Assembly (NCBI GenBank): GCA_944393745.1
Contig: CALYBD010000013.1
Span: 1-53,643, forward strand
Length of the DNA stretch: 53,643 nt
Direction of reading: 5' to 3'
Source: an uncultured Alphaproteobacteria bacterium
GTDB lineage: Bacteria > Pseudomonadota > Alphaproteobacteria > CAAGCB01 > CAG-977
Below the pieces are notes generated by a model. That model did not search any database and was not told where the DNA came from. It saw only the letters and a program-made list of their open reading frames with translations. This document shows, piece after piece, positions 29,277 to 31,385 of the stretch. Position 1 is the stretch's first letter; each line of letters opens with the position of its first letter. The translations under genes and the position numbers were made by a program.

Positions 29277-29334
<58 letters not shown>

Positions 29335-29352
<18 letters not shown>

Positions 29353-29897: not shown

Positions 29898-29940
29898 AAA
29901 AAAGTCCTTTTTGTTTCCGGAAACATAAAAGACTTTTTTT
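29898..29940 (+). terminator. Hairpin with U-tract ahead of the CsoR-type gene
   Basis: AAAAAAGTC (29898-29906) pairs with GACTTTTTT (29931-29939); inside is the palindrome GTTTCCGGAAAC. It ends in seven T residues 51 nt before the regulator ATG. It may end transcripts coming from the repeat region or act as a leader attenuator. Confidence 0.55.
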
Positions 29941-29954: not shown

Positions 29955-29990
29955 TGTTACAGTAAAGAAATGTTTTTTAAGGAGGAAAAC

Positions 29991-30299
29991 ATGGAAAAAG
30001 AAAACATAAAAACAGAAAAAAAAGATTTAAATGCTCCGGATCATCTCAAAGAACTCGGTCGTTTAAACAGAATTACGGGACAGTTGGAGGGAATAAAAAA
30101 AATGATTGCCAAGCAACGCGACTGTTCTGAAATATTATCTCAGCTGCGGGCTGTCCGATCGGCTGTGCGGGCAGTCGAAGCCAATATTTTAAAAGAGCAG
30201 TTAAAATTCTGTGTTGAACAAAGTTTTAATTCACCGCAGGAACGTCAGCAAAGAATTGATGAGCTCAGAGATTTGTTTGACAGATTTCATGAAATATAA
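29991..30299 (+). CDS. CsoR/FrmR-family repressor, CstR-like Cys pattern
   Basis: A 102-aa all-helical regulator of the DUF156 family (LGRLNRITGQLEGIKKMI, QLRAVRSAV). The ligand positions of CsoR (Cys, His, Cys at spacing 25 and 4) are here C45, Q70 and C74: the His is replaced while both Cys remain. That matches persulfide-sensing CstR rather than copper-sensing CsoR or formaldehyde-sensing FrmR. AAGGAGG 5 nt ahead fixes the ATG at 29991. It is followed 9 bp later by an MnmA-type gene, its likely target. Confidence 0.88.
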   Translation: MEKENIKTEKKDLNAPDHLKELGRLNRITGQLEGIKKMIAKQRDCSEILSQLRAVRSAVRAVEANILKEQLKFCVEQSFNSPQERQQRIDELRDLFDRFHEI

Positions 30300-30308
30300 A
30301 GGTTGAAA

Positions 30309-31385
30309 ATGAAGGTTCTGGTCGGTTTAAGCGGCGGCGTCGATTCTGCCGTTGCGGCATATCTGATGAAAAAAGCCGGCTGTGACGTCATTGCGGCAAC
30401 AATGTCAATTTGGGATAAAGAACGTCCTTTTTCGGCTTTGTCCGGCGGACGGGGGTGCTTTTCTTTGCACGAAGAAAAGGATATTGAATCCGCACGGGAA
30501 ATTTGTAAAATTCTGGAAATTCCTTATTTTGTCATTGATTGCGCGGCGGCGTACAAACGAATCGTTTTGGAAAATTTTAAAAATGAATACAAATCCGGAC
30601 GGACGCCGAACCCCTGTATTTTATGCAATGCTGCAATTAAATTCCGCGCTTTTCCCGATGCGGCAAAACAAGCCGGACTGGACTTTGATAAATTCGTTAC
30701 GGGACATTATGCGCGTATTGTTTTTGAAAAAGAAACAAATCTGTTCCGGCTGCTTAAAGGCACGGATTTAAAAAAAGATCAATCATATTTTTTGTATCGT
30801 TTAAACCAAGAACAGCTGGCGCATACTTTGTTGCCGTTGGGGGACAAAACAAAGGCGCAAATTCGCCAAACGGCTTTGGATGCCGGATTGCCCGTCGGTA
30901 ATAAGCCGGACAGCCAGGATTTTTATACCGGTGATCTTAATGATATTTTGCAGTTTCCTGCCAAGCCGGGGCATTTTGTGACAAAAGACGGGAAAATCCT
31001 GGGAATGCATTTGGGGTTTTGGAATTATACGGTCGGGCAAAGAAAAGGTTTGGGGATCAGCGCCGAAAAACCTTTGTACGTTTTGGGCTTTGATAAGGAA
31101 AAAAATAACGTTATCGTCGGGTTTGAAGATCAAAATGTTTGTCACGGGCTGACAGCGTCCATGTTAAATTGGACATCAGGAAAAGCTTTGACCCGTCCTG
31201 TTCGGCTGACGGCAAAAATTCGTTCTGCGCAAACTCCCGTATCTGCGACGGCGGCCGTATCGGGTCCGGATGAAATCAAAGTGGATTTTGAAACGCCTCA
31301 ACGCGGGATTGCCTGCGGTCAATCAGTGGTGTTATACGACGAACAACTGGTAATCGGCGGCGGCATTATCCGCAGTGTTTTTTAA
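30309..31385 (+). CDS. MnmA-type tRNA thiouridylase, variant active site
   Basis: A 358-aa protein with the MnmA layout: PP-loop LSGGVDS (7-13), EYKSGRTPNPCILCN with C103 and C106, TGHYARI, KKDQSYFLY, and the C-terminal barrel YTVGQRKGLGIS. MnmA uses two Cys to put sulfur on U34 of tRNA. The first is present, but where MnmA has DSQ(E/D)IC this protein has DSQDFY (Y206 for Cys). It is therefore a paralogue or mechanistic variant. The ATG at 30309 follows AAAGG. Pairing with the CstR-like gene suggests sulfur-linked control. Confidence 0.82.
   Translation: MKVLVGLSGGVDSAVAAYLMKKAGCDVIAATMSIWDKERPFSALSGGRGCFSLHEEKDIESAREICKILEIPYFVIDCAAAYKRIVLENFKNEYKSGRTPNPCILCNAAIKFRAFPDAAKQAGLDFDKFVTGHYARIVFEKETNLFRLLKGTDLKKDQSYFLYRLNQEQLAHTLLPLGDKTKAQIRQTALDAGLPVGNKPDSQDFYTGDLNDILQFPAKPGHFVTKDGKILGMHLGFWNYTVGQRKGLGISAEKPLYVLGFDKEKNNVIVGFEDQNVCHGLTASMLNWTSGKALTRPVRLTAKIRSAQTPVSATAAVSGPDEIKVDFETPQRGIACGQSVVLYDEQLVIGGGIIRSVF

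Follow-up and report, generated by a model that had tools for sequence, protein, structure and literature searches.

How can a tRNA 2-thiouridine synthase transfer sulfur when the cysteine proposed to carry it has been lost, and what does a regulator of the CsoR family do immediately upstream of its gene? The question is raised by two adjacent genes of an uncultured gut alphaproteobacterium, found in the window, the stretch of 53,643 nucleotides that was analysed. Both genes lie on its + strand. The textbook route of E. coli MnmA uses a persulfide on Cys199 together with Cys102. A route by way of a [4Fe-4S] cluster has also been put forward and challenged, the Fe-S dependence of this enzyme being disputed (PMC11784392). 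The CxxC-C MnmA of Thermus is cluster-dependent (PMC8584467). The overall account favoured here, which we consider probable on balance, is that the window codes for the sole MnmA of its host, an enzyme devoid of Cys199 and probably relying on cluster chemistry, that a CsoR-type autorepressor is encoded in front of it, and that this type of enzyme spread horizontally.

The csoR-mnmA gene pair

The first gene (29991-30299; ATG at 29991, TAA at 30297-30299) codes for a CsoR/RcnR-family (DUF156) regulator of 102 amino acids. A gap of 9 bp (30300-30308) separates it from mnmA (30309-31385; ATG at 30309, stop at 31383-31385), whose 358-amino acid product is a tRNA 2-thiouridine(34) synthase of the C199-less type with a DSQDFY motif. 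The earlier note had described a CsoR-type gene 9 bp before a DSQDFY-type MnmA, and its coordinates and residues proved correct. A tRNA gene is found upstream of the region (29277-29349).

The pair is present in five of seven congeners (G000, G001, G003, G004 and G005). G002 and G006 have no csoR-mnmA pair and no CsoR gene in their genomes at all, showing that regulation by csoR is dispensable, with the proviso that many of the compared genomes are metagenome-assembled and that the absence of a gene may be an assembly loss. Where they can be compared, the flanks of the pair vary among congeners while the intergenic gap stays short, which supports an operon; csoR and mnmA probably form one. A co-occurrence of CsoR and DSQDFY-type MnmA across genomes, raised in the earlier note, thus holds in these five species but not outside the genus, where an iterated HMM search found no CsoR gene adjoining mnmA at any other DSQDFY locus. 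In other genera of the same family the CsoR genes sit elsewhere, and several of their products lack Cys. The occurrence of the DSQDFY form in 79 distinct proteins and of the gene pair in five species of the genus shows that the observation is not due to chance. A search of the open literature for CsoR associated with MnmA, or for MnmA without Cys199, found no relevant paper; an earlier mention is possible.

A single MnmA in the genome

The window protein is recognized by the NCBIfam equivalog models of MnmA (PRK00143, 371 bits for a cut-off of 284; TIGR00420, 323 bits for a cut-off of 237), and Pfam PF03054, PF20259 and PF20258 match all three MnmA domains. These general models call it a plain MnmA, so that the C199-less class carries no label of its own. 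The AF2 model (pLDDT 92) superposes on the E. coli MnmA-tRNAGlu complex 2det with a Z of 41.9 and an rmsd of 2.0 over 345 residues. The loop of residues 41-50, which includes C50, is poorly predicted (pLDDT 56). In one other locus, L101, the MnmA frame (an open frame of 643 amino acids) runs across an ambiguous base (X) and takes in about 260 amino acids of unlike sequence upstream, representing either a fusion or an assembly artefact.

The genome, 99.0% complete, has a single full-length MnmA match (PF03054), and also encodes MnmE, TusA and three strong matches to PF00266, the family that includes cysteine desulfurases. A canonical mnmA elsewhere in the genome, which would have left room for an altered or repurposed enzyme as envisaged in the earlier note, was not found. 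Being the only MnmA next to MnmE and TusA, the window protein is, as judged from gene content, very probably the housekeeping s2U34 synthase and not a repurposed paralogue. The opposite reading, a PP-loop sulfurtransferase diverted to another role and with no action on U34, would explain why the catalytic Cys is lost and its loop remodelled. We consider it very improbable, far behind the housekeeping role: it is the sole MnmA of a genome that has MnmE, all three domains and the fold of the tRNA complex are retained, and in Elusimicrobiota, where the type was read from the position at which the profile match stops, the two types of MnmA occur largely in different genomes. A second full-length MnmA is likewise missing from 25 of 26 other genomes with the C199-less type. 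The Lentisphaeria genome G067 has a DSQDFY and a Cys199-type MnmA together (L182, L183), which could be due to two functions, a recent transfer or contamination of the bin.

Cysteine pattern of MnmA proteins without Cys199

Alignment to E. coli MnmA and comparison of the classes place the DSQDFY motif at residues 201-206 (30909-30926). Y206 stands where the catalytic Cys199 (E. coli numbering) would be and is followed by a deletion of three residues. Further upstream are C50 (30456-30458), the sole remaining Cys of an amino terminal CC motif, C78 (30540-30542), directly after a strand predicted at residues 73-77, and the CxxC motif C103-I-L-C106 (30615-30626) within PNPCILC. The earlier note was right in reading an intact PNPC..C and a DSQDFY in place of DSQ(E/D)IC; it did not include the near-invariant Cys78, the reduction of the CC motif to one Cys or the three-residue deletion after Y206.

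The first alignment comprised 100 distinct MnmAs, namely 54 DSQDFY proteins, two Chloroflexota proteins with DSQDFI and 44 proteins whose motif ends in Cys. C50, C103 and C106 are found in all 100. C78 is present in 53/54 DSQDFY proteins versus 0/44 of the Cys199-type, while the second Cys of the CC motif, found in 42/44 of the latter, is gone from the former, in which F205, R164 and W238 are near-fixed. A held-out set gave the same picture: all 24 new DSQDFY proteins have C50, C78, C103 and C106, and none of 11 new Cys199-type proteins has C78, three of them missing C50 as well. Over both sets C78 occurs in 77 of the 78 DSQDFY proteins covering the position and in 0/55 Cys199-type proteins, while the CxxC pair is invariant throughout. 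The guess in the earlier note that C50 matters gains from these counts, for C50, C103 and C106 are invariant among all C199-less proteins that cover them.

The C199-less proteins without C78 are the DSQDFY protein L125 and both Chloroflexota DSQDFI proteins, which implies that a protein that has lost Cys199 can do without C78. From these alignments, the minimum set kept in the absence of Cys199 is C50 with the CxxC pair, and C78 is a clade-specific addition. The DSQDFI proteins (L065:5977-7071 and L066:6001-7044), lacking both Cys199 and Cys78, are possibly the product of an independent loss of Cys199 that left C50 and CxxC alone. The mirror image of the class is also found: three Cys199-type MnmAs (L173, L174 and L188) lack any amino terminal Cys motif.

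Sulfur transfer in the absence of Cys199

The known cysteine classes of MnmA are C-DxxC-C, typified by E. coli, and CC-CxxC-C, typified by Thermus (for the latter, Shigi et al. 2020, as summarised in PMC8584467 and PMC11784392). Beside these, the window protein falls by its residues into a third class, C50-C78-CxxC without Cys199. With the E. coli enzyme (DxxC-C; structures 2der, 2det and 2deu) it shares the full-length fold and the same predicted reaction; E. coli MnmA differs in having Asp99 at the first Cys of CxxC, Cys199 as the proposed persulfide carrier and no Cys at position 78. The resemblance to the CxxC-C MnmA of Thermus thermophilus comprises the three domains, the PP-loop SGGVDS, PNPCxxC, the DSQ box and an amino terminal Cys, and by analogy both are likely to be oxygen-sensitive cluster enzymes. 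The window protein departs from it by a Tyr at the last Cys (199/200) with the ensuing three-residue deletion, by the reduction of CC to one Cys and by the extra Cys78. Because Y206 occupies the end of the DSQxxC box it is not filed under the CxxC-C class, even though it has the CxxC pair.

A third point of comparison is offered by the [4Fe-4S] PP-loop thiolases NcsA, TtuA and TtcA, which also combine a PP-loop domain with CxxC and for which cluster-activated sulfur is proposed, while their flanking domains differ. In NcsA, Cys 142, 145 and 233 hold a [4Fe-4S] cluster with one iron open (PMC10067955). Its third ligand, Cys233, is a late Cys and probably corresponds to the residue that the window class has lost.

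For proteins with this residue pattern the Cys199 persulfide route is impossible, and, there being no Cys199 to form the persulfide, a [4Fe-4S] cluster probably delivers the sulfur. In the mechanism that we infer for product, cluster and ligands, the second gene would provide the ordinary and only MnmA of the cell, forming s2U34 in tRNALys, tRNAGlu and tRNAGln. As in all MnmA enzymes, U34 would be adenylated with ATP within the pocket of the PP-loop, a [4Fe-4S] cluster would probably be bound by C103, C106 and one of C50 or C78, and the open iron of the cluster would bind the incoming sulfide. A cluster-free enzyme is a competing possibility, with the persulfide relocated to C78 or C50 and C106 acting as resolving Cys. 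It draws on the appearance of C78 in the same group that lost Cys199 and on the reported activity of E. coli MnmA without a cluster (reviewed in PMC11784392). The invariance of CxxC, as in the cluster-bearing CxxC-C type, and the existence of L125 and of the Chloroflexota proteins, which do without C78, argue against it, and we regard it as rather unlikely. The best-supported arrangement is probably a cluster on C103 and C106 with C50 or C78, or else the relocated persulfide.

Distribution and origin of the class

In a tree computed without the columns of the loop and of the box, the 54 DSQDFY proteins form one group (SH-aLRT 98) that covers Alphaproteobacteria, Elusimicrobiota, Melainabacteria/Gastranaerophilales, Verrucomicrobiota, Lentisphaerota and Kiritimatiellota, and also holds one protein labelled Deltaproteobacteria. 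Twenty alphaproteobacterial MnmAs of the Cys199-type form a separate group (100). The existence of one DSQDFY clade indicates that the residue switch was essentially one event and not many independent ones. In the tree and alignments the C199-less MnmAs appear as a little-noticed but coherent cross-phylum class. The Chloroflexota DSQDFI pair is placed outside the DSQDFY group, and for this reason one origin for all losses of Cys199 was not adopted, yet a single clade of all 56 proteins is not rejected (p-AU 0.35).

The exact DSQDFY motif was found in 12 of 385 alphaproteobacterial genomes, a count made with a strict pattern that misses close variants such as KKDSQDFY, and this low number fits an import of the class. 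The distribution fits horizontal spread with replacement of the resident enzyme, in a presumed direction: the class would have passed between phyla chiefly among host-associated anaerobes, and the imported C199-less enzyme would have displaced a resident MnmA of the Cys199-type.

The CsoR-type regulator

The regulator matches PF02583 with 81.9 bits (cut-off 22.8; E=4.3e-23) and is the only CsoR/RcnR-family member in the genome. The closest solved chains are 7mq1 and 7mq3, followed by InrS and CsoR; 7mq1 is presumably the pneumococcal CstR, though the entry is labelled csoR. As the earlier note had read them, C45 and C74 are present and Q70 takes the position of the metal-binding His. C45, the first effector Cys (30123-30125), is kept in all five syntenic orthologues. 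Q70 (30198-30200) and C74 (30210-30212) delimit the segment 30198-30212. With Gln at the His position, the Cys-His-Cys set of Cu(I) ligands is absent from the window protein.

Residues 45, 70 and 74 of the syntenic orthologues read C-Q-C, C-H-C, C-H-C, C-Y-C and C-Q-N (G000, G001, G003, G004 and G005, respectively). Two Cys without the metal His are thus found in the window protein and in that of G004, the His is present in G001 and G003, and G005 has one Cys. An Asp precedes the first Cys in four of the five, resembling the 7mq1 chain. Comparison of these residues reveals neither a stable copper signature nor a stable CstR signature. Since the residues that suggest CstR are not kept among orthologues, persulfide sensing is weakly supported; the regulator is real and probably not a dedicated sulfur sensor. 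CsoR-family proteins from sister genera of the window's family (L083:1489-1824, L084:1264-1743 and L085:1408-1743) lack Cys at both sensor positions (N/L, I/Y and F/L). With neither a thiol nor a metal ligand, a CsoR fold must respond to some other effector. The gene in L083 lies about 25 bp before one that by eye resembles tgt, coding for queuine tRNA-ribosyltransferase.

The first gene is most likely that of a repressor controlling its own operon, and autoregulation by csoR is likely. At 29957-29964 a TTACAGTA element probably supplies the -10 region (TACAGT) for the promoter of csoR-mnmA, and possibly also part of an operator. TTACANTA is found in all five csoR-mnmA leaders versus none of six mnmA leaders of the same family without csoR, and has a frequency in the window of about 0.05 per kb per strand; this shared element may simply be a -10 box. 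CsoR-type operators are pseudo-palindromes, and a run of at least four G/C is expected in most of them (PMC10318464). No run of at least four G or C exists within 130 bp upstream in four of the five species, and the G/C runs of G005 begin over 80 bp before the start codon, partly within a terminator-like hairpin; an operator may lie elsewhere or be of another type. An inverted repeat at 29902-29935 (GTTTCCGGAAAC core) was set aside, not being common to all species.

The effector of the presumed repression could be a thiol oxidant or persulfide, or Cu(I), and may differ among species. According to the first possibility the regulator is a true CstR, in which persulfide cross-links C45 to C74', freeing the promoter so that tRNA thiolation rises with sulfane sulfur. 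The window protein has in its favour C45, Q70 and C74 without the metal His, the Asp that precedes its first Cys in the manner of 7mq1, and the precedent of the CstR dithiol switch between C31 and C60' (PMC5480029). The CstR-like assignment of the earlier note is weakened by the syntenic orthologues with His70 (G001, G003), with Tyr (G004) or without the second Cys (G005). The CstR proteins of S. aureus and E. faecalis also differ by their genomic company: sulfide- or persulfide-handling genes are often near CstR (PMC10318464), whereas no sulfide-detoxification gene adjoins csoR-mnmA, the rhodaneses of the genome lie on other contigs, and among linked genes mnmA alone, coding for a tRNA thiolase, is retained from one species to the next. 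True CstR function is therefore doubtful.

The alternative of a Cu(I) sensor is, in our judgement, unlikely. Copper damages Fe-S clusters, and a regulator that is a copper CsoR by origin could induce fresh MnmA when exposed clusters are attacked. The window protein shares with copper CsoR the family and both Cys positions, two of the syntenic orthologues have C-H-C, as do most of the class's Cys-bearing relatives, and the relative in L077 adjoins an apparent multicopper oxidase gene (judged by eye). Against this reading, the window protein has Gln for the His ligand, G005 lacks the second Cys and no copper gene was recognized adjoining the pair. The more detailed proposal of a third U34 thiolase class, whose last cluster ligand moved to C50 or C78 and which in one genus is placed under a thiol-reactive CsoR-type repressor, is put forward tentatively.

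Significance

How MnmA transfers sulfur to the tRNA wobble base U34, by a Cys199 persulfide or a [4Fe-4S] cluster, is openly disputed (PMC11784392). The C199-less enzyme, being the only MnmA of many species, provides a natural and direct test of the reaction. If it does make s2U34, the family does not need Cys199-persulfide chemistry, and mapping of the roles of C50 and C78 would reveal how the position of a cluster ligand or of a sulfur carrier can shift.
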